Positions 1,196-48,696 of a stretch of DNA of 52,808 nt are shown here, piece by piece. The stretch is from positions 1-52,808 of the forward strand of contig JAFZRF010000052.1 of assembly GCA_017620025.1 (NCBI GenBank). Reading direction: 5' to 3'. Numbering within the stretch: position 1 is the stretch's first letter; each line of letters begins with the position of its first letter. The position numbers and the translations under genes were made by a program. This stretch comes from Ruminococcus sp. GTDB taxonomy: Bacteria; Bacillota; Clostridia; Oscillospirales; Ruminococcaceae. The notes under the pieces are model-generated. The model was given only the letters and a program-made list of their open reading frames with translations, did no database searches and was not told the origin of the DNA.

Positions 1196-1224
1196 TTGAC
1201 ATTGGCTGTGCTGTATGTTATAAT
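1196..1224 (+). promoter_or_regulatory. Sigma-A promoter of the kinase/phosphatase/FHA operon
   Basis: TTGACA (1196-1201), 17-base spacer, TATAAT (1219-1224). It is a perfect consensus promoter, divergent from the uppP promoter. No further promoter this strong is evident inside the operon. Confidence 0.85.
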
Positions 1225-1293: not shown

Positions 1294-2571
1294 ATGAGCG
1301 GACCAAAAGTAGATACAGCGACGCTGCGTAAAATGGAAAGGGACAGGCTGATCGCAGCAAGGCATGACCGTCAGGCGCTTGCTGCCGATATACAGAAGAC
1401 CATCAACGATCTTACCGGGATCTGTGATGAGCTCTGCGGTCTCTTTGATCAGGAAAGCGGATTCAGCGATCCTTCTGACAAAGTGCGCAAGAAGCGTGAG
1501 TCATACGGAAAAAGACTCAGGAAGCTTCTTAACAAGGTGCAGAGGGGCAATGAGATGTTCGATGTGACTTCGGCAAAGGGCGAGCTGCAGGAGATAAGAC
1601 GTGATATCGAAAGAGATCAGGAGTTTGTCACTGTCCGTAATATCGCTGATAACAACGTACAGATCGTCAAGCGGAAACAGGAGACACAGGCTGTAATTAA
1701 TACAAGGCGCAGGATAATTGAAAACCTTGCTCCTTCAGTTCCTGTCCCTGAGACAGGTGTGACCGAGGAAGAGGTAAGCGAACAGGCCGCCGCTTTTGAG
1801 GAGGATATCCGTATCCGCATGGAGGAGGGTGAGATGACAGGCACTCACAAAAACTCCATTCTCCTTATCAGTCAGGATCTTCATGAGCTGCTTGAAAGCT
1901 CTCTTCCCGCTGAAACGAGAGTCAAGCGTATGCGCCGCCTCTATGCCCAGTACGAAAAGGTGAATGCTCTTATCAGGAGTGAGATGGAGGTAATGCGTGC
2001 CGCCTATAATGAATACTGTGCCGAGTGCTTCGATTCCGGTTCGGAACCTGCTGCAATTTCTGATTTCTCGACCGTGAACGATATCAGGAAGGCAACAAAG
2101 GAAGCCGGCGAGTACGCAGAGAACAAGCTTTCACAGGAGTATATCAGAAGACAGATCGACGATGTCATGGCCAGACACGGCTACAACGTCATCCGCTCCG
2201 ATATCCTCGAGGAGACTTCGGGTCAGGTCCTCTACGGCGTTGACGAGGATTCAGCTATCAACGTATTTGTGTCAGATGACAATCAGGTCACGATGCGTGT
2301 CGTTGGCGTCGGCTTCGATTCAGATATTTCCGATGCTGAGAGCGAAAAGCTCTATCAGCAGCAGTGTGCATTCTGCTCTCTCCATCCGCAGCTCACAGCA
2401 GAGCTCGAGATGCGCGGGGTCATACTGACCACGAGAAAGCACAACCCGCCTGATAAGAAATTCAACAAGAAGATAAAGGTAAAGACAAAGAAGAACGAGC
2501 GGCAGTCGTCACGCACCGGAAGGGCGCAGCAGCGGCAGGAGCTCAGGACTATGTATAAGGAGAATGACTGA
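1294..2571 (+). CDS. Coiled-coil protein of unknown function, first gene of the phospho-signalling operon
   Basis: A 425-residue soluble protein that I do not recognise. It starts MSGPKV, has no signal peptide or membrane segment, and is highly charged with long heptad-rich helical stretches (roughly residues 5-35, 60-150 and 155-245). A more globular region follows (about 270-375, with a Val/Asp-rich strand-like patch around NVFVSDDNQVTMRVVGVG), then a very basic tail (last ~40 residues, KKFNKKIKVKTKK). The ATG at 1294 follows a CAGGG site. The stop overlaps the next start by one base (TGATG), so it is translationally coupled to the FHA gene. Context suggests a scaffold or substrate of the operon's kinase and AAA+ ATPase, which is inference only. 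Confidence 0.85.
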   Translation: MSGPKVDTATLRKMERDRLIAARHDRQALAADIQKTINDLTGICDELCGLFDQESGFSDPSDKVRKKRESYGKRLRKLLNKVQRGNEMFDVTSAKGELQEIRRDIERDQEFVTVRNIADNNVQIVKRKQETQAVINTRRRIIENLAPSVPVPETGVTEEEVSEQAAAFEEDIRIRMEEGEMTGTHKNSILLISQDLHELLESSLPAETRVKRMRRLYAQYEKVNALIRSEMEVMRAAYNEYCAECFDSGSEPAAISDFSTVNDIRKATKEAGEYAENKLSQEYIRRQIDDVMARHGYNVIRSDILEETSGQVLYGVDEDSAINVFVSDDNQVTMRVVGVGFDSDISDAESEKLYQQQCAFCSLHPQLTAELEMRGVILTTRKHNPPDKKFNKKIKVKTKKNERQSSRTGRAQQRQELRTMYKEND

Positions 2572-3302
2572 TGGCATCGATACGCTGTCCGCAGTGCGGA
2601 TATGAAAACCCCGAGGGTTCTGTGATATGTGATATTTGCGCCGAGACTCTTGTAAAGGCACCGGAGGTCCCTGCACCTACAGCAGCAGAGATCCCGCAGC
2701 CGGCACCAATGCATGCCATGAACGTTCCCGATCGCCTGCCCGAGCAGGTGTCTCCTGTAACAGAGAGCAGCAGTCAGCAGGCAGCGTCCGGCGAAACCGG
2801 CAGGCAGTACTATGTATTCTGTCCGGAATCGCAGGCGAAGACCATAGTAAAGAACGGAGAGGTCACAAGGTTCTACTGTGAGGGCTGCCATATCGAGCAT
2901 GATATAGACGGCTTCCTCTGGCAGATAGAGGTGAGTGAGGAAACCGCACCGTCCGCTCCCGGGGCGACCGCACCTCAGCAGACTGCCCCCGGGAGCGACG
3001 ATCTCTGGCTCGAGGAGATAAACACCGGCTTCCGTATAGATATTGCAAAGACCGGCGGCACTCTCGGAAGATACGGCAATTTCGGCTCGGAATTCTTCCT
3101 CTCGCACAATATGCATACTGTCTCCGGCGAGCACTGCCGCATAACCTATGAGTACGGCTCATGGGTGCTCAGGCATATAAGCCGTACCAACAGCACGCAC
3201 TACAACGGCGTTTCTCTCACCCGTGAGGAACCGAATCTCCTTGAGGACGGCAAGCTGCTCGTCCTTGCGAATACGGTTACTCTGCGTGTACATATAGGCT
3301 GA
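2571..3302 (+). CDS. Zinc-ribbon and FHA-domain protein (phospho-threonine reader)
   Basis: 243 residues in three parts. An N-terminal zinc ribbon has CPQC and CDIC knuckles (residues ~5-21). A Pro/Ala-rich linker leads to a second cysteine cluster (FCPE...YCEGCH, about 83-105). The C-terminal FHA domain (about 145-243) shows the GR loop (LGRYG), SGEH in place of the SxxH motif, and NSTHYNG for the conserved Asn turn. FHA domains bind phospho-Thr peptides, so this is the probable reader for the kinase encoded downstream, playing the role Fha plays with PpkA in type VI secretion (analogy, not shown here). It overlaps the genes on both sides by one base (TGATG), so it is strongly coupled. Confidence 0.9.
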   Translation: MASIRCPQCGYENPEGSVICDICAETLVKAPEVPAPTAAEIPQPAPMHAMNVPDRLPEQVSPVTESSSQQAASGETGRQYYVFCPESQAKTIVKNGEVTRFYCEGCHIEHDIDGFLWQIEVSEETAPSAPGATAPQQTAPGSDDLWLEEINTGFRIDIAKTGGTLGRYGNFGSEFFLSHNMHTVSGEHCRITYEYGSWVLRHISRTNSTHYNGVSLTREEPNLLEDGKLLVLANTVTLRVHIG

Positions 3303-3874
3303 TGTATATAGACCGCATCCTCTTCCCGATACAGGCACTCGGCCCCGGCGACCGTCTTGTGATATGGACGGCGGGCTGCTCCAGGCGCTGCACCGGCTGT
3401 GCAAACCCGGAGCTCTGGAGCACGGAGGGCAGACGCTCACGTTCTCCGCTTGAGATAGCCCGTATCATCAACAACATAGCAGCTGAAAACAGTATCAGCG
3501 GCATAACGGTCACCGGAGGAGATCCTCTCGAGCAGCCGGAGGAGCTTATCGAGCTCCTGCGCCTTGTCTCCTGTGTGACGGACGATGTCCTCGTCTATAC
3601 AGGCTACACCCTCGGACAGCTCTGCTGCGAGCTCACAACGGAGCAGTACGACGAGCTGAGAACACTTGTCTCCGTCCTTGCGGAGGGACCATACATCGAA
3701 GAACTGAACACACCGGATACCGTACTGCTTGGCTCATCGAACCAGAGCCTTGTATATTTCCGGGAGGATATGCGTGAGCGTTATGAGGAGTATCTTTCGC
3801 AGGGCAGGAAGATACAGAATGTGTATATGGGAAACAGGCTGATTTCCGTAGGCATACACAACAGGCAAAAGTAA
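3302..3874 (+). CDS. Short radical-SAM / 4Fe-4S protein (NrdG-like activase family)
   Basis: 190 residues. The radical-SAM cluster motif CX3CX2C is explicit (GCSRRCTGC, residues ~24-32), followed by NPELW as in NrdG/PflA-type activases, and GITVTGGDPLEQ (about 63-74) is the GGDP/GGEP motif that contacts S-adenosylmethionine. The length fits the minimal NrdG-like family, but no anaerobic ribonucleotide reductase or other glycyl-radical enzyme lies nearby; the neighbours are FHA, AAA+, phosphatase and kinase genes. The substrate is therefore unknown and probably not NrdD. It starts at an ATG overlapping the FHA stop and ends 18 bases before the AAA+ gene. Confidence 0.9.
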   Translation: MYIDRILFPIQALGPGDRLVIWTAGCSRRCTGCANPELWSTEGRRSRSPLEIARIINNIAAENSISGITVTGGDPLEQPEELIELLRLVSCVTDDVLVYTGYTLGQLCCELTTEQYDELRTLVSVLAEGPYIEELNTPDTVLLGSSNQSLVYFREDMRERYEEYLSQGRKIQNVYMGNRLISVGIHNRQK

Positions 3875-3892
3875 AACGATAAGGAGTTATTT

Positions 3893-5755
3893 ATGAAGAA
3901 GCACAGCGTGCCGAAGTGGCAGCAGGAGATATCGAGCTTCAAGGGTATCAAGAGCACGTTTATCATCGAAGGCAATATTAACGATTTCTATCCTCTTTAT
4001 GACGGCGGAGAGAATCCGCTTGCCTTCGTTGACCTGAACATGACTCTGCTCAGGCTCTTCAACGAGCGCAAGGAGGATACCGACTATGAGTTCCTGTTCT
4101 GTGATCCTGCAACAGGCATATACAACAAATTCGGCGACAGATACGGCAATATCGAGGAGATGCTCAACAAGTACTCTTCGGGTACCGACGGAGAGCCTCT
4201 TCCCTTCGGAATAGACAGGCTCTTCAAGAAGTCCTGCAAGCTTGATGATATCGAGCAGCTTTCTTCCGTGATAAGGAATGCCATGGTAGATACCGACAGA
4301 CAGAAGCCGGTTGTTGTTGTCATGAATTTCGTATCACGCTACATATCAAGTCCGTCGAATCTTGCACCGGATGAGAGCAAGATGTTCCTGAACCTCCTGT
4401 TCGCATCCCTTAATTCGGCAAGGATAAACAACGATTTCAACACCCTCATCATGATCGTTGAGAAGTTCAATGACCTTCCGGCATGGTTCTTCTACAACAA
4501 TCCGAACGTACGTACCATATCCATTCCCGATCCTGACAAGGACCTGAGAACGATATTCATTGACAAGGAGTATCTTGAATTCCGTGATGATCCCCGTCTT
4601 GAAAAGGTGAAGGAAAAATTCATAGATATCACTGAGGGACTCAAGCACCGTGAGCTGAAGGAGCTTCGCAATCTCTATCAGAGACTTATCGCGAAGAACC
4701 CCGAGACAGAGCTCCTTGATGCGGTATCGATATACAAGTACGGCATTATCGAGAATATGTGGCATTCCATAGACAAGGAAAAGATAGCAGGACTTGAGGA
4801 GCTTCTCAAGCAGCGTGTAATGGGACAGGACGAGGCGGTAAGCAAGACCGTGAATATCGTAAAGCGTGCAGTATCAGGTCTTTCGGGCCTGCAGCATTCC
4901 TCCGGCCAGAACAAGCCCCGTGGCGTACTCTTCTTTGCAGGCCCCACAGGTACCGGTAAGACTGAGCTCACGAAGGCGCTCTCCGAGCAGCTCTTCGGTG
5001 ACGAGAACAACTGCATCCGCTTCGATATGAGTGAGTTCTCCGAATCTCATGCAGCACAGAAACTCTTCGGAGCGCCTCCCGGATATGTCGGCTACGAAGC
5101 CGGCGGACAGCTTACCAACGCCATCAAGGAGCGCCCCTTCTCGATACTCCTCTTCGACGAGATTGAAAAGGCCCATCCGTCTATTATGGACAAGTTCCTC
5201 CAGATACTCGAGGACGGCCGTATGACGGACGGACAGGGCAATACGGTATACTTCTCCGAGACCCTTATCATCTTCACCAGCAACCTCGGTATCACAAGGC
5301 AGTACATCGACTCCACCGGACGTGAGTGCCGTGAACAGCTCGTCACCCCGAGTGAGACCTATGAGGAGATAAAGCCGAAGGTGCTAAGTGCTATAAAGGA
5401 TCACTTCAAGCCCGAGGTCCTCAACCGTATCGGCAACAATGTCATAGTATACGACTTCATTCGTCCCGAGGCTGCAAAGGCGATAGTAAGGGGTCAGGTG
5501 AAGAAGATAAACAGCCGCATACTCAAGCAGAACAAGATCACCGTCAACGTTACTGACGCTCTCCTTGAGCTATTCTATGAGCTTGCCTCCCGTGACAACG
5601 TACTTGAAATGGGCGGACGAGGCATAGGAAACCTCATGGAGGAGCAGTTTATCAATCCGCTTGCCGAGTTCATCTTTGAAGCCGCCTGTGATACAGGTGA
5701 TACAGTAACAGCGGATGCAGCAGACGGCAAGGTCGTCTTCTCCAAGGGGGCATAA
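3893..5755 (+). CDS. ClpB/ClpV-like AAA+ ATPase with a degenerate first ATPase half
   Basis: 620 residues. The C-terminal half (about 300-610) is a complete Hsp100 D2-type module. It has GPTGTGKTEL (Walker A, near 350), pore loop GYVGYEAGG, LLFDEIEKAH (Walker B), FTSNLG (sensor 1), FKPEVLNRIG (arginine-finger region) and GGRGI (sensor 2). The N-terminal ~290 residues look like an AAA fold (STFIIEGNINDF; PVVVVMNFVSRY) but lack a Walker A and an acidic Walker B. No ClpP-binding loop or ClpB middle domain is evident, so a disassembly/remodelling role is more likely than proteolysis (inference). The GAAGGAGT-type site upstream (AAGGAG at 3880s) supports the ATG at 3893. The phosphatase gene follows after 3 bases. 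Confidence 0.93.
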   Translation: MKKHSVPKWQQEISSFKGIKSTFIIEGNINDFYPLYDGGENPLAFVDLNMTLLRLFNERKEDTDYEFLFCDPATGIYNKFGDRYGNIEEMLNKYSSGTDGEPLPFGIDRLFKKSCKLDDIEQLSSVIRNAMVDTDRQKPVVVVMNFVSRYISSPSNLAPDESKMFLNLLFASLNSARINNDFNTLIMIVEKFNDLPAWFFYNNPNVRTISIPDPDKDLRTIFIDKEYLEFRDDPRLEKVKEKFIDITEGLKHRELKELRNLYQRLIAKNPETELLDAVSIYKYGIIENMWHSIDKEKIAGLEELLKQRVMGQDEAVSKTVNIVKRAVSGLSGLQHSSGQNKPRGVLFFAGPTGTGKTELTKALSEQLFGDENNCIRFDMSEFSESHAAQKLFGAPPGYVGYEAGGQLTNAIKERPFSILLFDEIEKAHPSIMDKFLQILEDGRMTDGQGNTVYFSETLIIFTSNLGITRQYIDSTGRECREQLVTPSETYEEIKPKVLSAIKDHFKPEVLNRIGNNVIVYDFIRPEAAKAIVRGQVKKINSRILKQNKITVNVTDALLELFYELASRDNVLEMGGRGIGNLMEEQFINPLAEFIFEAACDTGDTVTADAADGKVVFSKGA

Positions 5756-5758
5756 GCT

Positions 5759-6532
5759 ATGTTCAGATATGCAGTACTTATCGATATAGGCGTTCACGAG
5801 GATCAGAACGATGACCGTGTTTCCGTGGACGGAAATATAGTAGAAGAAGGATGGCTGCTCGGAACAGCGGATAAGGATTATTTCCTTGCAGCTGTCTGTG
5901 ACGGAGCAGGCGGAGTGAAGCAGGGCGGCAGAGCTGCCGGAATGGCGGTAAACGGCATAAGTGAGTGCCTTGCCCCCGGACTCTCGGCTGCCGATATACG
6001 TGCAGCGATCGAACGTGTGAACTCCCGTGTCGTAGAGACCGGCGAAGCAGAGGGCGCAAGGAAAGAGCTGATGACCACTGTTGCCGGTATTTACGCAAAC
6101 GGTGAGGATCTCATCGTATTCAATGCGGGCGACAGCCGTGTCTACCGCCTCAGAGGACAGTACCTCCGCCTGCTCTCAAAGGATCATTCCTATGTGCAGG
6201 ATCTTGTGGATATAGGGAAGATAACCCCGGAGGAAGCTCACCTTCACCCGAAGAAGAATATAATCAACAAGTTCATAGGCATAGAGCAGCCGGTAAACCC
6301 GAGAGTAAAGGAGTTCACCGAGGATCTGCTCAACGGAGATATATTCATGATCTGCTCCGACGGCATAACCGATGTGCTGACGGATGCAGAGATATGTGAG
6401 ATCATGCGCAGTCACAGCCGTGATATCAAGCTTGACAGATGCTGCTCAGCCCTCAGGGACGCAGCAGTAAAGGCAGGCTCACTCGACAACATGACTGTGC
6501 TTCTTATAAGAAAGGAAGGGACGGAAGAATAA
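5759..6532 (+). CDS. PP2C-family Ser/Thr protein phosphatase
   Basis: 257 residues, full length for a bacterial PPM/PP2C phosphatase. The metal-binding and catalytic motifs are all present: HEDQNDD near residue 14 (the N-terminal acidic site), CDGAGG (about 43), ELMTTVAGI (about 102), NAGDSR (about 121), CSDGITD (about 200) and DNMT near the C-terminus. It removes phosphate from Ser/Thr residues and here most likely counteracts the kinase encoded next; its TAA overlaps the kinase ATG by one base. No membrane segment is seen. The AAGGGGG at 5744 region gives an 8-base spacing to the ATG. Confidence 0.95.
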   Translation: MFRYAVLIDIGVHEDQNDDRVSVDGNIVEEGWLLGTADKDYFLAAVCDGAGGVKQGGRAAGMAVNGISECLAPGLSAADIRAAIERVNSRVVETGEAEGARKELMTTVAGIYANGEDLIVFNAGDSRVYRLRGQYLRLLSKDHSYVQDLVDIGKITPEEAHLHPKKNIINKFIGIEQPVNPRVKEFTEDLLNGDIFMICSDGITDVLTDAEICEIMRSHSRDIKLDRCCSALRDAAVKAGSLDNMTVLLIRKEGTEE

Positions 6533-8982
6533 TGGCAGAAAGGATCCCGACAGTACCTCAGGCAGACGATGAGCGAATTCCGACGATGCCACAGGACAGC
6601 GATGAACGCATACCCACGATGCCACAGGACAGCGACGAGCGCATACCCACGATGCCTCAGGGCAGCGAGGAACATATACCCACAATGCCGCAGGGCAGCG
6701 ATGAACGCATACCCACAATGCCGCAGGGCAGCGACGAGCGTATACCCACGATGCCGCAGGGAATCAGTGACCGCATCCCGACAGTGCCGCAGGGCGGAGC
6801 AGACGGTCGCATCCCGACAGTGCCGCAGGGCGGTGCAGACGGACGTATAGCTACAGTACCTCAGGGCGGTGCAGCGACAGCGGCTCAGACAAATTCAAGA
6901 CCTTCTCTCTTTGCCGGCAGGCTCAGCCTGAAGGGCGAAAGAGGAAACGAATTCGAGATAGACGGCAATAAGGTGATAAGCAACGACAGCGGCGAGTCAC
7001 AGATCTTCGGCTGTACCATGAAGGACAGCAGTGAGAGCTATGTTGCAAGGATACTCACAACAGTTACGCCTGCTGACAGTGTCGAGAGAAGACAGGTGCG
7101 TGACAAGGTCATTTCCTTCCTTGACAGCGTCAGCCGGAAGAATAATTCGCACATCCTTCCTCTTATCGATCACGGTACAGTCAGGATAGGCGACAAGGAC
7201 TACTACGCCGAGATATATCCCTTCTGTGAGGGCGGCGACCTCGGCAGGCGTGCCGGCAGCTTTGATTATGCCACACTCTGCAAGGAGATAATCCCCGCAG
7301 TGAATTCGGCCCTGCATGAGTTCCATGAGGCAGGCTTCGTTCACAGGGATGTAAAGCCCGATAACCTCTACTATTACAAGGGCAGGGTAGTTCTCGGTGA
7401 TTTCGGCATCACCTGCGATCTCCGTGAGGACGGCTTTGCTACCGACCGCAAGAAGACCGGAACCCTCGGCTACTACGCACCTGAGCTCATGTCTCAGGCG
7501 GCTATCAAGGCCTCCGATTACTATTCATTCGGCCAGACGATATGGACTCTCTACAGCGGCGAGATGATGTACCGCAACCTGCTGCGTATCTACAAGAGCT
7601 ATGGCATAGACGAGCAGCGCAATCAGGTAAACTTCGCCATGATGAACAATACCTATTTCGGCCTTGACGAGATACCTGAGAGCCAGTCCTTCTTCGAGGT
7701 GCTCATCCGCGGACTTCTCCAGTATGATCCCACCGAGCGCTTTGACTACGATCAGGTAAAGCGCTGGCTGAACGAAGACAAGTCCCTCATCAACGAGGTC
7801 AAGGGACTTGAGGCTTCCAAGACGACATACTCCCGTCCGTTCAAGCTTTTAGGCGGCGAGGCATGGAACGACGGCGAGCTTGCAGAGACCCTCAGGAAGC
7901 ACTGGGATGATGCAAAGCAGTACCTCTATGACGGAACTATCCGTGATTTCATTGCCATGGAGAATTTCGACCTGGCGACCTACCTCAAGCAGCTTGTCAA
8001 GAAGTATGCCTATACTCCCTACGAGGAGAAGACTTCCTACTGGCATGATGAAGGTCTCAGCCGGCTTATCATGCACCTTGAGAATAACAAGCGTCTCTGC
8101 TGGCATGATATGGTCATTGAAGACATAACCGATGTCGGGAAGCTGGATCTTAATGATACTGGATCTCAGGCAGCCGACCTTATCCGTTCGCATCTTATAA
8201 TGGAGTGGTATCAGACACAGCGCAGCTGCAACGATACCGTAATAGAGATGCTGCAGACTGCCACTGACTTCTACTGCGGTGATACCGATGGTTACAGGAT
8301 AGGAAAGGAATGGTTCAGCCGTTTTTCCGATATCGGCAGGGATTCAATCTATGCCGGAGCTTCCGATCTTGACGGCGCAGTTATGAAGCTCTTTGAGAAG
8401 CCGTCATACGTATACGGTACAGAGCGTATCGAAGGCGTTGACCGTCCGGGAAGACTGCCGTACCTCCTTGTGGACAGGCATGATTTCCTTGGTGCTCTCT
8501 GTATGTGGGGCTACTGGGAAGCAGTAAAGCTACTGCATCAGTCATTCAGTCAGTCCGTGTATCTGCGGTTTGAACTTCTTTTCCATTTCCTCGATGAAAA
8601 TACGACCGGCGATGTACAGGCAAAGGTACGCAGCTTCTATAACGAGTACGGCCCGAGCGGCTATATCACATGGCTCAGCAGGAACTTTGAGCTGTATACT
8701 GTCTCCGGCACACGCTGCACAGAGCTTACGGAGCAGATCAGGACGAATATCCCCGATCCGGCTTCCGATATAAAGACGCAGTGTCAGACGTTCGCAGAAG
8801 TATACGAACTCCTCAAGGAGCTTCTGCAGTATAACGAGGCAGATATCTTCATGGCGAGAATAGGTATCATTCAGTCAGGAAACGGCGAATGCTTCACCTC
8901 CGACAAGCTCAGTGCAATGTGGTATTTTGATTTCCTCGGGCAGGCAAGTCCGCTCGGATTCAAATTTGATTCAGGAATATAA
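6532..8982 (+). CDS. Ser/Thr protein kinase with an N-terminal array of IPT(M/V)PQ repeats
   Basis: 816 residues from the ATG at 6532, which overlaps the phosphatase stop; an earlier in-frame start at 6439 would lie inside the phosphatase gene. Residues ~4-115 are about ten 11-12-residue repeats of the type RIPTMPQGSDE. A Hanks-type kinase domain follows (about 125-420): HRDVKPDN (catalytic loop) and DFGIT (metal-binding loop) are intact, but the usual VAIK lysine position reads YVARIL, so Lys appears replaced by Arg. TGTLGYYAPEL is the activation-segment/APE region. The last ~390 residues (Trp/Asp/Tyr-rich, mostly helical) match nothing I recognise. No transmembrane segment, unlike PknB/PrkC. 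Likely autophosphorylates the repeat Thr residues for FHA binding (inference). Confidence 0.93.
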   Translation: MAERIPTVPQADDERIPTMPQDSDERIPTMPQDSDERIPTMPQGSEEHIPTMPQGSDERIPTMPQGSDERIPTMPQGISDRIPTVPQGGADGRIPTVPQGGADGRIATVPQGGAATAAQTNSRPSLFAGRLSLKGERGNEFEIDGNKVISNDSGESQIFGCTMKDSSESYVARILTTVTPADSVERRQVRDKVISFLDSVSRKNNSHILPLIDHGTVRIGDKDYYAEIYPFCEGGDLGRRAGSFDYATLCKEIIPAVNSALHEFHEAGFVHRDVKPDNLYYYKGRVVLGDFGITCDLREDGFATDRKKTGTLGYYAPELMSQAAIKASDYYSFGQTIWTLYSGEMMYRNLLRIYKSYGIDEQRNQVNFAMMNNTYFGLDEIPESQSFFEVLIRGLLQYDPTERFDYDQVKRWLNEDKSLINEVKGLEASKTTYSRPFKLLGGEAWNDGELAETLRKHWDDAKQYLYDGTIRDFIAMENFDLATYLKQLVKKYAYTPYEEKTSYWHDEGLSRLIMHLENNKRLCWHDMVIEDITDVGKLDLNDTGSQAADLIRSHLIMEWYQTQRSCNDTVIEMLQTATDFYCGDTDGYRIGKEWFSRFSDIGRDSIYAGASDLDGAVMKLFEKPSYVYGTERIEGVDRPGRLPYLLVDRHDFLGALCMWGYWEAVKLLHQSFSQSVYLRFELLFHFLDENTTGDVQAKVRSFYNEYGPSGYITWLSRNFELYTVSGTRCTELTEQIRTNIPDPASDIKTQCQTFAEVYELLKELLQYNEADIFMARIGIIQSGNGECFTSDKLSAMWYFDFLGQASPLGFKFDSGI
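6541..6870 (+). repeat. Tandem 33-36-base coding repeats (IPTMPQ array)
   Basis: About ten consecutive in-frame units encode [R/H]IPT[M/V]PQ plus a four- or five-residue Asp/Glu/Gly/Ser spacer. The middle units are nearly identical at the DNA level and the outer units have drifted, which suggests slippage or recombination-driven change in copy number. Confidence 0.9.
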
Positions 8983-8994
8983 GGAGGCCGGACA

Positions 8995-10416
8995 ATGATA
9001 CAGAACAACGGAATCAATATAAGCAGGCTCGCAGAGGCAGCGGCTAAGCAGAAGGACGTGCTCGATGAGCTTTTTACCGGGCTTCGCAATGAGCACAGTG
9101 AGTATCAGGCCAATAACCCCCTCTACAGAAAGTACGGCTTCTTCAATCTTGTCTGGACACTCCTTGTACTTGCAGGCATAGTCTTCGCATTCCTCAAAAG
9201 GGAGCTGCTAACAGAGAAGCTTTCCGACAAGCTGTTTGAAATGAACGTACCGACCGGAGCCAGAGACGAGCTTGAAGCAAATCTTATCTGGCTGGGAGCG
9301 GCTCTGCTGGTACTAATTGCTGTGATAAGGGTGACGAATCTTCTGAGGATGATCTACAGCCGCAGAGTTTCAAGGCGGGCAGCAAAGATAGGTTCATTCC
9401 GCAAGACTGCCGAAAAGCGTATGGCAGCTACTGACATGGCCGATTTCAGAGCGGCTGTTGTCAATGCAGCAGAGGAAGGCAACAGGGATTTTTCAGCAGA
9501 CCGCAAGAACGATCTCGGAAAAAAGATCAGCGCCTTCAGAGACAGTCTTGCAAATTCCAACCGTCATGCACGACTGATAAAGGGTATCGTATCACCTGTT
9601 CTTTCGGCATTTTACTATCTCTTCGGTTTTGCCGTGATATGGCTGCTTAAAGACAAGTTCGCGGACGACAGCTATATTACATATATGTGGCTTGTCCTCT
9701 TCGGCATCTACACCTATTTTGCCATCGATGCAGTCATATGCAGCATCGGCGGCTACCTCGGAAAGTTCATGCGTCCCTTCGGCTGTCTTCTTGCAGCGGG
9801 CTACGCAGCATTCCTATGGTACATAATAAGAGGTATTGACGGCAGTTTCTTTGACAGCGCAGCTTTCTGCACAAATGACGGAACGAAGCTCATACCGCAG
9901 CTGAAGATCTCCTATGTGGTGATACTGCTCCAGTTCATAGCAATGATCGTTGGCATCATCAAGGGAGATTATCTCGGAATGAAGGATAAATGGGAGCATT
10001 CCTTTGATCTTTCCATGCTCTACGGCGGTTCCGGCAGAATGAAGACAAGAGGCTCCGTGATACGCCGTATGCTCTGGAGCTTGCCGTGGGTACTGGCAGC
10101 ATGGGCAGCCGGCATATATTTATCCAGGGCACTGGTTCTCGTATCCTTTGTAATTACCTGGTGGAGATCAATGCCGCTGTTCAAGCCGTTCGGTTCGGTC
10201 ATCTATGAGTTTTTCGGAAGAGTAAAGTCGATAAGTATGTCACTTATGAGCTTTGCACTCATGATCATGATCATCCTCCGTGTCAACGGCGCTTTAAGCA
10301 TGAAGGATCTGATCATGTTCGGCATTGCCCTTGTGGTATATCTGGTATTCGGACTTATCATCAAAGCAATAAACGACGGCACAGAGCTTTTCGGCTTCAT
10401 GAATTTCTTTGTATAA
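8995..10416 (+). CDS. Polytopic membrane protein of unknown function, last gene of the signalling operon
   Basis: 473 residues that I do not recognise. About nine or ten hydrophobic segments are visible: near residues 48-68, 100-117, 200-220, 232-254, 263-278, 307-325, 361-391 (probably two), 410-426 and 440-458. A long soluble loop of ~80 residues (118-198), rich in Arg/Lys/Glu, separates the second and third segments. There is no signal peptide. AAGGAGG lies 8 bases before the ATG and the gap to the kinase gene is 12 bases; a strong terminator follows. It may be the membrane anchor or effector of the kinase/FHA/AAA+ system, on context alone. Confidence 0.88.
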   Translation: MIQNNGINISRLAEAAAKQKDVLDELFTGLRNEHSEYQANNPLYRKYGFFNLVWTLLVLAGIVFAFLKRELLTEKLSDKLFEMNVPTGARDELEANLIWLGAALLVLIAVIRVTNLLRMIYSRRVSRRAAKIGSFRKTAEKRMAATDMADFRAAVVNAAEEGNRDFSADRKNDLGKKISAFRDSLANSNRHARLIKGIVSPVLSAFYYLFGFAVIWLLKDKFADDSYITYMWLVLFGIYTYFAIDAVICSIGGYLGKFMRPFGCLLAAGYAAFLWYIIRGIDGSFFDSAAFCTNDGTKLIPQLKISYVVILLQFIAMIVGIIKGDYLGMKDKWEHSFDLSMLYGGSGRMKTRGSVIRRMLWSLPWVLAAWAAGIYLSRALVLVSFVITWWRSMPLFKPFGSVIYEFFGRVKSISMSLMSFALMIMIILRVNGALSMKDLIMFGIALVVYLVFGLIIKAINDGTELFGFMNFFV

Positions 10417-10434
10417 CAGCCCTGCAGGCTCCTG

Positions 10435-10474
10435 TATCCCGGAGGTATACCGATACTTCCGGGATATTTTTTTG
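10435..10474 (+). terminator. Terminator of the signalling operon
   Basis: A 15-base arm (10435-10449) pairs with 10452-10466 (one wobble) and is followed by a run of T to 10474. Confidence 0.9.
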
Positions 10475-10549: not shown

Positions 10550-11704
10550 ATGAAGCTATTTCATCTTTCAGATCTTCATATAGGCCTTAAACTCTATGAC
10601 CGTGATCTTCGTCAGGATCAGGAGCATATCCTCGGCCTGATAGTGAAGGCAGCAGCAGAGCAGCGCCCCGATGCAGTCATCATTGCCGGTGATATCTACG
10701 ACAAAGCAGTTCCGTCAGCTGAGGCAGTGAGCCTGTTTGACAGTTTCATATCCTCTCTGACAGAGACTCTTCCGGATGCTGAGATCATGATGATAAGCGG
10801 CAACCATGACAGCGCCCCGAGAGTGAACGTATACCGCAGCATACTCAGCCGTCAGCGTATACATATGATAGGCATCCCGCCGCAGGCTCCCGGAGAGCAT
10901 ATCGAGAAGGTAACTCTTTCCGACGAGTACGGCGATGTGGATTTCTGGCTTCTCCCTTTTGTAAAGCCGTCTATGGTACGCAGAGCAGTCGGTACAGAAG
11001 AGGATACGGCACTCTCCTATGATGAGGCAGTACGCCGTCTGCTTGCAAGGGATATGCCTGATCCGGAGCGCCGCAGCGTTCTTGTCAGCCACCAGTTCTA
11101 TCTGCCGGACGGCAGTGATCCGGACAGCATCGGCCGAACGGATTCCGAGATAAAGACAGCCGGAAATATAGACAGTATCAGCGCTGATGTACTCGAGCCG
11201 TATGACTATGCCGCACTCGGCCATATCCACAAGCCCATGACAGTGGGCAAGCACCGTTTCCGCTACTGCGGCACCCCGCTTGCATATTCGGTAAGTGAGG
11301 CCGGACAGCAGAAGGGTATAATCATGGCAGAGCTCGGCGAGAAGAGGACTGAGGTATCACTGACCGTCATTCCTCTTGAGCCCCTTCATCAGGTACGCGA
11401 GATAACAGGCAGCCTTGAGGAGATACTCTCACAGGCCTGCGATGATTACGTAAGGGCAGTACTCGTCGGAAGACCGGGCGCAGATGCCTTCGATATACAG
11501 GACAGGCTTCGCTGCGCATTCCCGAATCTCCTTGAGATAAGACGTGAATGGCAGGGAATTAGAGGCACAGCCCTCAGCGGCAGCTCACCTGCACCGGATA
11601 CAGACCCGTTCACCATATGCTGCCAGATGCTCGGAGACCTTGACGAAGCGGAAGAAGCTCTTCTCCGTGAGGTAGTGAACGCAGTAAAGGAGGAAGAGGA
11701 ATGA
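10550..11704 (+). CDS. sbcD: Exonuclease subunit SbcD (Mre11-type)
   Basis: 384 residues. Metallophosphoesterase that, with SbcC, forms the SbcCD (Mre11-Rad50) nuclease which cleaves hairpins and processes blocked DNA ends. The metal-binding motifs run in the expected order: LSDLHIG (residues 6-12), AGDIYDKAVPS (about 45-55), SGNHDS (about 84-89), VSHQFY (about 182) and ALGHIHKP (about 222-229). The ATG has an optimal AAAGGAGG site. Its stop overlaps the sbcC start by four bases (ATGA), the normal arrangement for this pair. The family assignment is certain. Confidence 0.97.
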   Translation: MKLFHLSDLHIGLKLYDRDLRQDQEHILGLIVKAAAEQRPDAVIIAGDIYDKAVPSAEAVSLFDSFISSLTETLPDAEIMMISGNHDSAPRVNVYRSILSRQRIHMIGIPPQAPGEHIEKVTLSDEYGDVDFWLLPFVKPSMVRRAVGTEEDTALSYDEAVRRLLARDMPDPERRSVLVSHQFYLPDGSDPDSIGRTDSEIKTAGNIDSISADVLEPYDYAALGHIHKPMTVGKHRFRYCGTPLAYSVSEAGQQKGIIMAELGEKRTEVSLTVIPLEPLHQVREITGSLEEILSQACDDYVRAVLVGRPGADAFDIQDRLRCAFPNLLEIRREWQGIRGTALSGSSPAPDTDPFTICCQMLGDLDEAEEALLREVVNAVKEEEE

Positions 11705-14700
11705 GACCGCTTAAACTCAGAATGGAAGCATTCGGCTCCTACGGAAAGGAGACCGTGATAGACTTCACACGTCCGTCTCAGGAGCTCTTCCTGATAACCG
11801 GAGATACCGGCTCGGGCAAATCAACGATATTTGAAGCGATAGTGTTCGCTCTCTACGGCGCACCCGACAGGGACAAGAGGCTCAAATCCGGCCTTGACTT
11901 CCAGAGCAGGTTTGTCCGTGACGGCGCAGAACCCTATGCGGAGCTTACCTTTACAGAGCTTACGGGCGGCGAGGAGCTTACCTATACTGTCCGCCGGACT
12001 CCGAGACACAGAGTCAGGAAAAAGCGCGGCGAGGGCTTCAAGGACGTTTCCGAGACGCTGAGCCTTACAATGCCCGACGGAATTGAGTATCCGCAGAAGG
12101 AAACGCAGGAAAAGATAACCGAAATAGTGGGCCTGACAAGAGAGCAGTTCATGCAGGTCGCCATGATCGCTCAGGGAGAGTTCAGAGAGCTGATAAGCTC
12201 CGATACCCCGAGACGCAAGTCGATCTTCCGAAAGCTCTTCGGCACGGAGATATTCGACAGAATAGTCGGAGAGCTCGATTCCCGCAGAAAGCTGCTTGAA
12301 GCGGAAATGGAAAAGATACAGGAGGTCTGCCGGACGCACGTATCCATGATAGTCCTCCCGCCCGAAGCACAGGAAGACGAGGATAACAGGATAAAGGTGC
12401 TCCGTGACAGCATCGTCTCCTCGAAGCGTCTCAGCATCACCGACCTTGAAGAACTGACGGGAGCCATGAGCACATACTGTGAGGAGCTTTCCGGAGAGCT
12501 CGGTGAGCTTGAGAAAAACGCATCACAGAAGGAGAAGGAAAGAGACAGGATACGTGAGAGCTTTGCAAAGGGTGAGCAACTTGTAAAGGCCTTTGTCTCA
12601 GCTGAAGCAGCCGAAAGGGATCTTAAGGAATGCACTGCCGCAGTTCCTGTTATAAAGGAGTACGAGAAGCAGCGCAAGGCCATAACCGATTCCTATGCCG
12701 TAAAGACCAAGTACACTTCCTATGAAAGAGCCGCAAAGGACGCAGAAGAAACAAAGCAGAAGCTTGACAGGCTGCGTGAGGAACTGCCGGCACTGACCGA
12801 AGCTTCCGAAAAGGCAGCAGCAGAGGAAAGAGCAGCCACAGCAGAGAGCGATAAGGAGCTTGAAGCCTGTACAAAAGTACGTGAGCGCACTGAAAAGGCT
12901 GTAAAGGCGATAAGGGAACTGAAAGAGGCGCAGGAGCAGTTCAGACAGAAGACGGAAGCGCTTAAAACCTGTTCCGGTCTTGTTGCAGAGGCAGAAAAGG
13001 CCATGAAGGAGCATGAGATTCGTGAGAAGGAGTGGAAGGAACGTGAGAACGCCCTTTCAGATGCCGGAGTACGTCTTGTTGAATGCGGCGCAAGGAGAAA
13101 GAGCCTCATCACTGCAAGAGAACAGTATACAGCTGCCGCAGAGGCACAGAAAGCCGCGCAGCAGCAGGAGAAGAAGGCTGCTTCTGCAAAGCAGGCGTAT
13201 CTCAGTGCAAGAACTGACTTTGAAGCGGCAAACAGCGAATACTCAGTTATCCGCAGCCGTTTCCTTGATGCGCAGGCCGGTCTCCTTGCTTCTGAACTGC
13301 GTGACGGTGAAAAATGCCCTGTATGCGGCTCAAGAGAACACCCCGAGCCATGTGTGCTGAAAGACGAACACCGTGAGCTCACAAGGGAGACGGTTGAAGA
13401 GAAGCAGGCAGAGGTAACAGCTCTTGATGAAGTGCAGAACAAGCGCTCTGCGGAATCGAGTTCTGCATCTGAGCTGCTGGAAGAGAAGCGTGAACAGGCT
13501 GTAAAGCAGCTAAGTGTGCTGCTTTCTGCGACAGCAGAGCTTTCGGGAAAACAGACAGAAGGCATGACAGCAGAGCAGGCCGGCGCTGAGCTTGAAGCAC
13601 TTCTTGCTGAGGCAGAGAAAGCATATTCCGAAGCAGAAGTGAATGCGGGACTTCTTGAAAAAGTGCGGGAGGATCTTAAAAATGCCGGCGCTGAGGGAGA
13701 GAAGCTGCGTGAGAACGCAAAGAAGGCTTCCGACAACGTCAATGCTGCAAGAAATGCCTGTGCCGCAGCTGAAGCGGCCGTCAAGGAACGGGAGAGCCGT
13801 ATAGACTATCCTACCGAGGCTGAGGCTGAAGCTGCCCTTGCAGAAGCAGAGAAGAAGCGCAGCGAAAAGGAAGAGAAAAAGAAGACAGCGCAGAGTGTCG
13901 CTTCATTGGCTAAGACTAAGGCAGACAAGGCAGCAGCACAGATCGCACAGTATCAGGAACAGCTTCCCGGGCTTGAAAGCAGGCGTGATTCACTCCGGAC
14001 TGAGTACGAGCAGGAGATGAAGGAGAAGGACCTTGTGGAGTTTGAGTGGAAGGACATCACAGAAAAGCATACCATAGAGACAGCAGAGCAGCTGACGGAA
14101 AAGATCGACAGCCATAACCGCAGGATCCATGCGGCAGAGGGTGCTCTTAAATCGGCAAAGGCCACGGTCGGAGATCAGGAAAAGCCGGATATGGAGGCTC
14201 TTGAAGAAGCAAAGGCAAAGGCGGAGGAGGAATATCTCTCCGCCCAGCAGAGATGTAACGCCTGCAAGGATATATACTCAAGGAACAGCGGAGTGCTCGC
14301 ATCGCTTGCCGAGAAGCAGGAGGAACGCAGGATCACGGCGGAGAATTTCTCCCGCACGGAGAACCTCTACAAGCGTCTTTCCGGAAAGATGACCGACGGC
14401 AGGATGGATATAGAGACCAGAGTGCAGAGATTCTATCTTGCAAGGATACTCGATGCGGCAAACCGACGTTTCAGGGAGATGTCAGACGGCCGGTTCGAGC
14501 TGGGTATGACTCCCGAGGAGGCGGCAGCAAAGGGCAGCAATACCGGTCTCGACCTGATGGTATATGACAACGTCAACGGCAGCGAGAGAGAGATAAAGAC
14601 TCTCTCCGGCGGTGAATCCTTCATGGCGGCGCTGGCGCTTGCACTCGGTATGGCAGATCAGATACAGGAAAGCTCGGCAGCAGTGAATCTTGACATAATG

Positions 14701-14895
14701 TTCATCGACGAGGGCTTTGGCTCGCTCAGCGACCACGCAAGGGCACAGGCTATAAAGGTGCTCCGTACCATGGCTGGCGGCTCAAAGCTCATAGGTATCA
14801 TATCCCACGTAACGGAGCTGAAGCAGCAGATAGAGGACAAGCTCGTTGTTGAGAAGGACTCATCGGGCAGCCACATCAGCTGGGTCATCTCTTAG
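11701..14895 (+). CDS. sbcC: Exonuclease subunit SbcC (Rad50/SMC-type ATPase)
   Basis: 1064 residues. N-terminal ATPase lobe with GDTGSGKST (Walker A, residues 34-42) and a Q-loop region around EQFMQVAMIAQGEF. Long coiled coils of Glu/Lys/Ala heptads (about 190-530 and 560-900) flank the zinc hook CPVC (about residue 538), through which two SbcC molecules dimerise. The C-terminal lobe has LSGGE (about 968) and DIMFIDEGFGSL (Walker B, about 1000). ATP-driven partner of SbcD in double-strand-end processing. Large minus-strand open frames opposite the coiled coil come from its composition and are not genes. Confidence 0.97.
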   Translation: MRPLKLRMEAFGSYGKETVIDFTRPSQELFLITGDTGSGKSTIFEAIVFALYGAPDRDKRLKSGLDFQSRFVRDGAEPYAELTFTELTGGEELTYTVRRTPRHRVRKKRGEGFKDVSETLSLTMPDGIEYPQKETQEKITEIVGLTREQFMQVAMIAQGEFRELISSDTPRRKSIFRKLFGTEIFDRIVGELDSRRKLLEAEMEKIQEVCRTHVSMIVLPPEAQEDEDNRIKVLRDSIVSSKRLSITDLEELTGAMSTYCEELSGELGELEKNASQKEKERDRIRESFAKGEQLVKAFVSAEAAERDLKECTAAVPVIKEYEKQRKAITDSYAVKTKYTSYERAAKDAEETKQKLDRLREELPALTEASEKAAAEERAATAESDKELEACTKVRERTEKAVKAIRELKEAQEQFRQKTEALKTCSGLVAEAEKAMKEHEIREKEWKERENALSDAGVRLVECGARRKSLITAREQYTAAAEAQKAAQQQEKKAASAKQAYLSARTDFEAANSEYSVIRSRFLDAQAGLLASELRDGEKCPVCGSREHPEPCVLKDEHRELTRETVEEKQAEVTALDEVQNKRSAESSSASELLEEKREQAVKQLSVLLSATAELSGKQTEGMTAEQAGAELEALLAEAEKAYSEAEVNAGLLEKVREDLKNAGAEGEKLRENAKKASDNVNAARNACAAAEAAVKERESRIDYPTEAEAEAALAEAEKKRSEKEEKKKTAQSVASLAKTKADKAAAQIAQYQEQLPGLESRRDSLRTEYEQEMKEKDLVEFEWKDITEKHTIETAEQLTEKIDSHNRRIHAAEGALKSAKATVGDQEKPDMEALEEAKAKAEEEYLSAQQRCNACKDIYSRNSGVLASLAEKQEERRITAENFSRTENLYKRLSGKMTDGRMDIETRVQRFYLARILDAANRRFREMSDGRFELGMTPEEAAAKGSNTGLDLMVYDNVNGSEREIKTLSGGESFMAALALALGMADQIQESSAAVNLDIMFIDEGFGSLSDHARAQAIKVLRTMAGGSKLIGIISHVTELKQQIEDKLVVEKDSSGSHISWVIS

Positions 14896-47303: not shown

Positions 47304-47390
47304 GCCGGCGTGATGGAATTGGCAGACGTGCGAGACTCAAAATCTCGTGTCCGCGAGGACGTGCGGGTTCGACCCCCGCCGCCGGCACCA
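47304..47390 (+). tRNA. tRNA-Leu (anticodon CAA)
   Basis: 87 bases including an encoded CCA. The acceptor stem gccggcg pairs with cgccggc; the anticodon stem cgaga / tctcg encloses the loop ctcaaaa, giving CAA, which reads UUG. The long class II variable arm (tgtccgcgaggacg) and the T-arm gcgggttcgacccccgc are intact. Its 3' end is the apparent integration site of the mobile element. Confidence 0.95.
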
Positions 47391-47406
47391 TTGTGATCGC
47401 AGGTTC
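47370..47406. mobile_element. Probable left attachment site (attL) of the integrated element
   Basis: The integrase stop codon lies 16 bases past the tRNA-Leu CCA end, and int and xis read toward the tRNA, the usual arrangement for elements that integrate at a tRNA 3' end. The second att copy would lie beyond the right edge of the window, so the core sequence cannot be defined here. Confidence 0.6.
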
Positions 47407-47429
47407 TTACACGGAGCCTGCGATTTTTT
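47396..47429 (+). terminator. Rightward terminator of tRNA-Leu overlapping the integrase 3' end
   Basis: atcgcagg (47396-47403) pairs with cctgcgat (47417-47424), followed by a T-run (47424-47429) on the plus strand. It contains the integrase stop codon. Confidence 0.7.
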
Positions 47430-48696
47430 CGTTTTCTTCATCGTCATCGTCGCCGAGGACTCTTGCGATGGTCTCCGCCGAAGAAATCCTTGACGAGTAA
47501 TCGAGATGGCTGTAAAAATTCGCTGTTACGTTAAATGTTGAGTGTCCGAGCCAATCCTGGATGGCTTTCATGGACTCTCCGTTTGCAAGCAAAAGACTGG
47601 CACAACTGTGTCGCAGATCATGGAACCGCAGTTTCCTGAGACCATATTTCTTAATCATGATCTTGAAATGGTCGCTGACGTAGTTCGGCGTGATCAGCTT
47701 TCCGAATGCGTCACGGCACACAAAGCCCTCATAGGTTCTGTCAAAGTCAGACCTCAGAAGATTGGAGTACATTTCCTCTTTCTGCTGCTGATCTCTGAGC
47801 ATCCGCTCAATGTGCGGAATCAGAGGGAGCGTTCTCACACTTGCTTCTGTTTTCAGCGTATTGTCCACGATAATCTCCTCATGACCTGAGCCGTTCCGGC
47901 TTGTAACCTTGCGGCAAATTTTGATCGTCTTATTCTCAAAGTCGATCGCATCCCACTTCAGACCGATGACTTCGCTTCTGCGGAGTCCGTAGTAGGCTGC
48001 AATATGAACGACAAGCTCCATTCTGTCACCCTTGAACACCTCAAGCAGCTTGTTCAGTTCTTCCTTGCTGTAAAAACACGCTTTGTATTTTTCCAGTTTC
48101 GGCAGTTCTACCTTGTCGGCAGGATTGGAACTGAGCATATCCATCTTAACGGCATATTTCAATGCCTTGTGGATATTGGCATGATAATGCTTGATTGTAT
48201 TGCCTGTCAGACCGCTGTTATACAAATCATTGTAAAACTGCTGAATCTGCAAAGGCGTGATCTCACATAAGAGCAGATCAGGGTATTTATCGTTGAAATA
48301 GGTGCAGATCTTCTGAATATAGCTAATATAGCCACAATACGTTGTATATGCTATCGTAGGCTTTACGGTTTCGAGCCAATGGTTCAGAAAGTCTGCAAAC
48401 AGACAATTCCCTGCTCTTATCACAACGCCTTCTGCGAGCGCCTCAGCACTCACGACCGTGCGGTCTGCTCTCTTATGCTTGGCTTTGGTTGCCTTGCCGG
48501 AGAGAAAGTCCTCGTAGAATGCACCGACGATCTCCTCGACCTTTGCTGCCAGTGCTTTCTTGGTACACTTCTCGCCCAAACCTGTACTTACCCATTTGCG
48601 CCTGCGTTCGCCGTTATCGTCCTTGAAATCAAAGACCACATACTGTTTTCCGTTTTTGCTTGTAATGATGTACTTAAAAGGCAGACTTGCTTTCAT
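47407..48696 (-). CDS. int: Tyrosine site-specific integrase
   Basis: 429 residues. It has an N-terminal arm-DNA-binding region (about 10-60, YVVFDFKDDNGERRRKW), a SAM-like core-binding domain (about 85-175) and a C-terminal catalytic domain (about 190-415). The catalytic set is visible: Arg in YGLRRSEVIGLKW, HDLRHSCASLLL (His-x-x-Arg), WLGHSTFNVT (second His) and the nucleophile Tyr in NFYSHLDY. It excises and inserts the element at tRNA-Leu. GGAGG lies ahead of the ATG. The promoter at 48750-48778 sits between it and xis. Confidence 0.95.
   Translation of the reverse strand: MKASLPFKYIITSKNGKQYVVFDFKDDNGERRRKWVSTGLGEKCTKKALAAKVEEIVGAFYEDFLSGKATKAKHKRADRTVVSAEALAEGVVIRAGNCLFADFLNHWLETVKPTIAYTTYCGYISYIQKICTYFNDKYPDLLLCEITPLQIQQFYNDLYNSGLTGNTIKHYHANIHKALKYAVKMDMLSSNPADKVELPKLEKYKACFYSKEELNKLLEVFKGDRMELVVHIAAYYGLRRSEVIGLKWDAIDFENKTIKICRKVTSRNGSGHEEIIVDNTLKTEASVRTLPLIPHIERMLRDQQQKEEMYSNLLRSDFDRTYEGFVCRDAFGKLITPNYVSDHFKIMIKKYGLRKLRFHDLRHSCASLLLANGESMKAIQDWLGHSTFNVTANFYSHLDYSSRISSAETIARVLGDDDDEENEKIAGSV

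Follow-up and report, generated by a model that had tools for sequence, protein, structure and literature searches.

A Ruminococcus operon combining threonine-kinase signalling, a radical-SAM protein and an Hsp100-type ATPase as a candidate mobile cassette

The operon and its Hsp100-type ATPase

The DNA analysed here, henceforth the window, is the whole of a 52,808-nucleotide stretch from Ruminococcus sp. (family Ruminococcaceae; GenBank assembly GCA_017620025.1, contig JAFZRF010000052.1, positions 1 to 52,808 of the forward strand), and our subject is a group of seven adjacent plus-strand genes at 1294-10416 that encodes a Ser/Thr kinase, a PP2C phosphatase, an FHA protein, an Hsp100-type AAA+ ATPase, a radical S-adenosylmethionine (radical-SAM) protein, a membrane protein and a coiled-coil protein that we refer to as MSGPK (Table 1). 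An open reading frame check returned each gene where an earlier note, made from the letters alone, had put it, including the one-base overlaps, which occur at three junctions (MSGPK/FHA, FHA/radical-SAM and PP2C/kinase); the other gaps measure 18 bp (radical-SAM/AAA+), 3 bp (AAA+/PP2C) and 12 bp (kinase/membrane protein). The kinase probably starts at 6532 rather than at 6439, where its open reading frame begins. The single consensus promoter described in the note is also present and, from this promoter-like site to the terminator-like site, the seven genes look like one transcription unit, both sites being pattern matches that do not by themselves prove transcription. A second 12/12 TTGACA-17-TATAAT site lies at 1110-1138 on the minus strand, divergent from the operon promoter and ahead of an undecaprenyl-diphosphatase-like gene (by eye), and 3' of the operon sbcD/sbcC-like genes at 10550-14895 have a promoter-like site of their own.

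Table 1. Features of the operon in the window.
Feature	Position	Strand	Remarks
Promoter-like site	1196..1224	+	TTGACA-17-TATAAT, TG ahead of the second hexamer; 12/12 consensus match
MSGPK coiled-coil protein, 425 aa	1294..2571	+	Pfam matches of the window protein all below cut-off
Zinc-ribbon + FHA phosphothreonine reader	2571..3302	+	GR...S..H motif present; Pfam/NCBIfam
NrdG-like radical-SAM protein	3302..3874	+	CSRRCTGC, GGDP; Pfam/NCBIfam
AAA+ protein, N-terminal half	3893..4762	+	No Walker A, no Pfam family; probable pseudo-D1
AAA+ protein, C-terminal half	4763..5755	+	Hsp100/ClpB-type D2, Walker A, LLFDEIEKA Walker B, ClpB_D2-small
PP2C phosphatase, Stp1 type	5759..6532	+	Catalytic motifs seen by inspection; Pfam/NCBIfam
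Ser/Thr kinase	6532..8982	+	HRDVKPDN and DFG conserved; Arg (YVARIL) at the beta-3 Lys position
Thr-repeat tail of kinase	6568..6867	+	Nine [DE]ERIPT[MV]PQ-type units, 33/36-nt spacing; a tenth just upstream
Kinase domain	about 6997-7761	+
C-terminal domain of kinase	about 7774-8982	+	Common to relatives
Polytopic membrane protein	8995..10416	+	8 segments (simple hydropathy scan); probably an output or anchor
Intrinsic-terminator-like site	10434..10467	+	15-pair; 3' of last gene

Family assignments come from Pfam and NCBIfam. The FHA domain was found at E = 1.4e-7 (the N-terminal zinc ribbon is weak), the radical-SAM gene matched Fer4_12 at 1.2e-26 and, as its best NCBIfam hit, NrdG at 1.7e-27, the phosphatase matched at 3.4e-49 and the kinase at 4.9e-23. 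The membrane protein had no match in the Pfam scan.

The C-terminal half of the AAA+ protein carries the features of an Hsp100 D2 ring, namely AAA_2 (2.7e-53) with Walker A and B motifs followed by ClpB_D2-small (5.2e-8). The ClpB model matched at 1.7e-88, aligned only across model positions 507-852 of 853, and the ClpV model TIGR03345 aligned only across positions 513-840 of 852, i.e., over D2, with no N-terminal VipB-binding domain found. The earlier label ‘ClpB/ClpV-like’ thus holds for the ClpB-type D2 and fails for the likeness to ClpV. Residues 1-290 had no family match in the Pfam scan and lack the second Walker A of a catalytic D1 ring, while the profile of this N-terminal family has a weak similarity (E = 0.005) to VCP-like AAA domains and so faintly indicates a D1-like fold; this half is probably a pseudo-D1. 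A single Walker A, in D2, is present in the window protein and in each listed relative, except for the truncated protein of locus L112, which shows none. We also looked for an IGF-like tripeptide ([ILVM]G[FL]) in the window protein, where it is absent. Judged by its sequence, the protein is an Hsp100-type unfoldase and not ClpV: it shares D2 sequence and motifs with ClpB and ClpA, but differs from them in its N-terminal half and in the restricted span of the ClpB alignment.

Recurrence of the gene set in other genomes

Scanning genome contigs with the AAA+ protein gave 80 loci, of which the ten best (L004-L013) match from query residue ≤182; the other 70, matching from residue ≥205, served as Clp-family controls. 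Iterated Hidden Markov Models (HMMs), trained on cassette loci and never on controls, were run on all reading frames. The comparison covered 40 loci, with L216-L221 (distant AAA+ proteins), L101 (a contig without the AAA+ gene) and L222 (from the genome of L012) left out, and with the near-identical pairs L103/L104, L109/L110, L198/L199 and L213/L215 counted separately. Radical-SAM genes were present at 33 of these loci, MSGPK at 32, the kinase at 29, FHA at 21 (including all 14 loci with PP2C), PP2C at 14 and a helicase at 9. The MSGPK figure combines 23 HMM detections with nine assignments by eye (L108, L113, L205, L206, L208 and L212-L215), and without the latter is 23/40; at L207 the HMM missed the protein, and a weak one was found in that genome, adjoining the AAA+ gene. 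Radical-SAM, MSGPK, PP2C and helicase genes always lay on the AAA+ strand, as did all but one FHA and one kinase gene.

Under the same models and thresholds, MSGPK, FHA, radical-SAM and PP2C were each found at 0/70 control loci and the kinase at 1/70. The gene cluster exceeds chance. Distances between AAA+ proteins also correlate with those between radical-SAM proteins (r = 0.82, 31 loci), phosphatases (0.80, 13 loci) and kinases (0.92, 28 loci), with none of 2000 permutations reaching any of these values, in statistics that ignore the species tree.

The set of kinase, PP2C and FHA proteins around an Hsp100 ATPase is also that of the Thr-phosphorylation pathway (PpkA, PppA, Fha) and ClpV of the type VI secretion system (T6SS), to which the earlier note had likened the operon. 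However, only two of the 27 carrier genomes gave the sheath family PF05943 (VipB), both times on contigs other than the cassette's; it was not found in the other 25, including the window's genome (whose assembly is about 76% complete, several others also being incomplete). Moreover, the cassette adds a radical-SAM protein and MSGPK, resides in other hosts, and the term ‘radical SAM’ does not appear in a T6SS review that covers PpkA, PppA, Fha and ClpV (PMC10482370). The proposed T6SS kinship therefore does not stand. By contrast, the suggestion of a stand-alone switch, in an operon free of secretion genes, gains support from the recurrence of the set and from the absence of a linked sheath, the search having been for the sheath and not for tube or baseplate families: the genes stay linked in relatives, and we saw neither scattered homologues nor adjoining secretion genes.

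Two variants were seen besides. In L005, L006 and L007 a protein of 242-248 aa follows a full-length pseudo-D1 Hsp100, and its relatives sit after PP2C in L102 and L106. A cyanobacterial version (L214:2898-11258) has vWA-like and Hsp70-like genes upstream of a radical-SAM-MSGTPK-AAA+ row (by eye).

Proposed signalling core, MSGPK and interchangeable outputs

The repeats that had drawn attention to the kinase lie in its N-terminal tail, and repeated Thr motifs are frequent in the tails of kinases from FHA loci: ten IPT[MV]PQ units in the window, and elsewhere seven QQTRREN, five PTQRD, four VT[QE]RFD and others. Of 17 such kinases, nine have repeats that exceed those of shuffled sequences at an uncorrected P<0.05, six of these at P≤0.001. 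The kinase of L212 stands outside the 17, its FHA gene being 8.5 kb distant and on the opposite strand, and has no repeat; L240 was left unscored both for repeats and for the motif table. Pairwise differences in the window's repeat core number 26, 0 and 95 at codon positions 1, 2 and 3, respectively. Such a tail is likely the anatomy expected of a multivalent FHA docking site, its phosphorylation being presumed. As to catalytic motifs, the catalytic-loop and DFG Asp residues are kept in 13/13 kinases seen at PP2C loci, and the beta-3 Lys in 11/13, the exceptions being the window and L004.

A different arrangement characterises one Pseudomonadota clade (L009, L010, L013, L198, L199, L203 and L204, of which L199 and L203 are recorded in split form), where the kinase is part of the helicase protein and has become a pseudokinase: the beta-3 Lys is lost in 7/7 and the DFG Asp in 6/6 visible cases. 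No Thr repeat beyond shuffles (P<0.05) was found in any of these seven, and the fetched stretches of their loci yielded neither FHA nor PP2C. In place of the membrane protein this clade carries an SF1 (superfamily 1) helicase-REase_MTES_1575 protein, although L203 gave no REase match. At seven loci (the window, L004, L100, L108, L111, L113 and L209) the gene after the kinase encodes a predicted membrane protein. A separate helicase-nuclease also neighbours kinases with intact motifs where FHA and PP2C are present, namely on a 44-kb rumen plasmid and in L102, a genome of the window's family in which one small gene separates it from the kinase.

The kinase-helicase protein of Burkholderia matched the PADLOC models PDC-S37 (3e-142), Hhe (1e-64) and MkoA (1e-48), in line with Mokosh and the candidate PDC-S37, whose defence proteins are kinases or SF1 helicases. 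In the cassette, though, this protein belongs to a fixed set with an Hsp100, a radical-SAM protein and MSGPK, and the window version has no helicase. Against the 2023 PADLOC models no catalogued defence system matched the cassette as a whole, the matches being to single proteins or domains. We additionally scanned a hand-picked 94 of 186 neighbouring proteins, for which 25 of 117 PADLOC and 25 of 127 Pfam families are listed with members unnamed; the listed families include CRISPR type III, TIR, PDC-S01, a methyltransferase, three weak mad2 hits and a reverse transcriptase (no control). At L110:15681-20000, type III CRISPR genes adjoin the cassette, and the same-genus operon L109 has other neighbours on that side (by eye).

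Among the cassette proteins in which no enzymatic domain was recognised, MSGPK is the most constant. Its 29 aligned homologues share 13-43% identity with the window protein and have only two invariant residues, G296 (2179-2181) and C361 (2374-2376); 20 of the 29 rows begin with MSGPK or MSG[ST]PK, some starts having been chosen manually (those of L009, L100, L106, L111, L204 and L210 were set at MSGP). No Pfam family was common to more than two of the 29, even at E≤1, and comparing the MSGPK profile with PDB sequences returned coiled-coil-like noise only (best E 0.0016). Two single-homologue matches, to Rx_N (5.7e-6) and to DS (3.2e-4), were taken as chance, as no other member matches.

All 33 listed radical-SAM proteins have CxxxCxxC and GG[DE]P and fit the NrdG/PFL-activase-like type, while no glycyl-radical enzyme appeared among the operon's Pfam matches or among the 25 of 127 Pfam families listed for the scanned neighbours. 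Given that the MSGPK gene is present at 29 of the 33 radical-SAM-bearing loci and given its constancy without an enzymatic domain, MSGPK is our favoured candidate for the client of the radical-SAM protein.

Apparent mobility, proposed mechanism and alternatives

A profile search with the AAA+ N-domain (E≤1e-8) found carriers in 9/299 genomes of the window's own phylum, 7/299 of Pseudomonadota and 5/246 of Actinomycetota (each of these three counts includes one known-carrier centre genome), in 7/146 of Cyanobacteriota (four clear, three weak) and in 20/148 of Bacteroidota, where all matches are weak (E≥6.5e-18). Five Bacteroidota loci and one weak cyanobacterial locus were examined and gave neither MSGPK nor radical-SAM by HMM. 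Two distant Bacteroidota AAA+ genes with a related N-domain (‘FILHGNVxDLV’; L219:5476-11544 and L221:262-7202) lie near PspA-like genes (by eye). Within the window's own family, the MSGPK query matched 7 of 297 genomes, including the window's; four further genomes of its genus were searched and gave no match.

In the AAA+ tree the window and a Lachnospiraceae genome group together (100/100) and belong to a larger clade, again at 100/100, that also contains L111, the Actinomycetota locus L209 and, from the window's own family, L100; other members of the window's family (L102, L103/L104 and L105) fall in separate lineages, some of them weakly placed. Proteins flanking the operon in the window had no phmmer match in the predicted genes of L004, L100, L111 or L209. 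The N-domain occurs on nine plasmid records, five of them predicted conjugative; Rhizobium plasmids with the cassette are predicted conjugative, and the 44-kb rumen plasmid, predicted non-mobilizable, holds the row helicase-kinase-MSGPK-FHA-radical-SAM-AAA+-PP2C. From such sequence comparisons the cassette appears to have moved as a block among distant bacterial phyla. An empty-site test within the genus gave no site: SbcD was found in 2/4 same-genus genomes, with UppP beside it in neither region. Elsewhere in the window (47304-48696), a tRNA-Leu(caa) adjoins an opposite-strand tyrosine-recombinase-like gene (47407-48696, by eye), probably marking the end of a tRNA-targeting integrative element.

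Conflict systems typically combine a fixed signalling core with outputs that can be exchanged. Such outputs, together with patchy occurrence and plasmid carriage, suggest that the cassette may be a mobile conflict system. In our preferred reading, to which we give somewhat better than even credence, the operon represents one form of a conserved cassette that spreads horizontally and in which a dedicated Hsp100 unfoldase is under the control of Thr phosphorylation; the cassette would most likely serve in conflict, defence or acute stress and not in secretion. The kinase would phosphorylate the repeated Thr motifs of its own tail; the zinc-ribbon/FHA protein would dock on the resulting phosphothreonines and PP2C would reset them, as intact motifs and co-occurrence suggest. 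The signal would then turn on the pseudo-D1/D2 Hsp100 ring, with the co-encoded MSGPK as its likely client or adaptor. The note had suggested that the complex under control might be the coiled-coil protein itself; its frequent presence on the same strand agrees with a role as AAA+ target, though the action itself is inferred. In what is the weakest step, the NrdG-like enzyme may modify or license a cassette protein, most likely MSGPK, which is favoured for its invariant Gly and Cys. Output would come from a module that differs between lineages: the membrane protein here, and elsewhere the SF1 helicase-REase. In one clade with the latter, the kinase would have become a pseudokinase platform.

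In a more specific version, which we advance only tentatively, the cassette is an undescribed mobile immunity system: the radical-SAM protein modifies MSGPK, the phospho-gated pseudo-D1 Hsp100 remodels it, and an interchangeable output fires (the membrane protein in the window type, or a helicase-nuclease on a pseudokinase platform). A categorically new immunity mechanism is possible.

Several observations weigh against the preferred reading. Only a handful of loci have recognisable defence genes beside them (by eye and with no control, TIR genes at L100 and type III CRISPR genes at L110), and none of the phage records searched matched the AAA+ N-domain; likewise, in a scan of viral contigs, none among the 80 matches listed covered query residues 1-207. 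Linkage is often loose, with MSGPK within 150 bp of the AAA+ gene at only 12/32 loci and radical-SAM at 24/33. In the Clostridia loci L005-L007 the AAA+ protein has no other HMM-detected partner nearby, and neither these genomes nor that of Streptomyces L012 gave an MSGPK match at E≤1e-4. The beta-3 Lys-to-Arg change in the window and L004 kinases is of a kind that usually cripples catalysis, and a significant Thr repeat is missing from 8/17 FHA-locus kinases even at uncorrected P values. Finally, IGF-like tripeptides occur in the D2 of some relatives (e.g., L198 and L209), where coupling to ClpP is possible.

The best-surviving alternative, which we nevertheless find rather unlikely, is a proteostasis or envelope-stress system, useful without being defensive, in which a kinase would control an Hsp100 disaggregase that works with membrane and Hsp70-like partners. 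The Hsp100 core, the seven loci with a predicted membrane protein, the Hsp70 family in 2/94 scanned neighbours and the two Bacteroidota loci with PspA-like genes all fit such a role, whereas carriage by so few genomes in three phyla (Bacillota, Pseudomonadota and Actinomycetota), on plasmids and with helicase-nuclease partners would be unusual for a housekeeping function. An explanation that we rate as unlikely is the phospho-controlled assembly, without any conflict role, of a cytoskeleton-like or membrane-anchored MSGPK polymer. Its coiled-coil body and the N-terminal hydrophobic segment of some homologues (L008, L113 and L208, by inspection) would suit a polymer that the Hsp100 could disassemble, but the window protein matches no polymer family and the helicase partner at 9/40 loci would be left unexplained.

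It is very improbable that the NrdG-like enzyme activates MSGPK as a small glycyl-radical protein, with G296 as the radical site and C361 as its partner: although the invariance of these residues and the enzyme's top NCBIfam match would accord with it, a glycyl-radical motif occurs in 0/29 homologues, xGYxV is also an ordinary helix-strand turn, and the carriers include aerobes (Burkholderia, Sphingomonas and cyanobacteria). A T6SS control set whose secretion genes were lost or are distant can be practically dismissed, since the identical list of kinase, phosphatase, FHA and Hsp100 proteins and a weak TagH match of the FHA protein (4.8e-7, far under the model cut-off) are set against the sheath and ClpV results above and against carriers among Bacillota, Actinomycetota and Cyanobacteriota.

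Among known conflict systems, the TerY-P triad consists of vWA, PP2C and kinase proteins. The operon resembles it in its conflict-type kinase and PP2C pair but has no vWA protein, and adds the Hsp100, radical-SAM, FHA and MSGPK proteins. The MoxR-vWA and FtsH ternary conflict systems, as presented in PMC7159879, also pair an AAA+ ATPase with modular effectors, and in one FtsH subtype a radical-SAM domain was proposed as a peptide modifier; they are built on MoxR or FtsH with vWA, unlike the Hsp100/kinase/PP2C/FHA and MSGPK set described here. We file the cassette among phospho-regulated AAA+ systems, and recognised no paper naming it in open-access literature searches. Beyond what the earlier note contained, the analysis brings the N-domain without Walker A, the link between Thr repeats and FHA, the pseudokinase-helicase version, plasmid carriage and a wide spread.

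In the cassette, radical-SAM chemistry meets an Hsp100 motor and signalling by Thr phosphorylation within one co-inherited unit, which centres on the MSGPK family and was found here in four phyla. The split between operons with FHA, PP2C and a Thr-repeat kinase and those with a pseudokinase and helicase is a natural experiment, and makes the proposed wiring directly testable. The cassette would also account for genes now annotated as ‘AAA family ATPase’, ‘4Fe-4S single cluster domain-containing protein’ and ‘hypothetical protein’.

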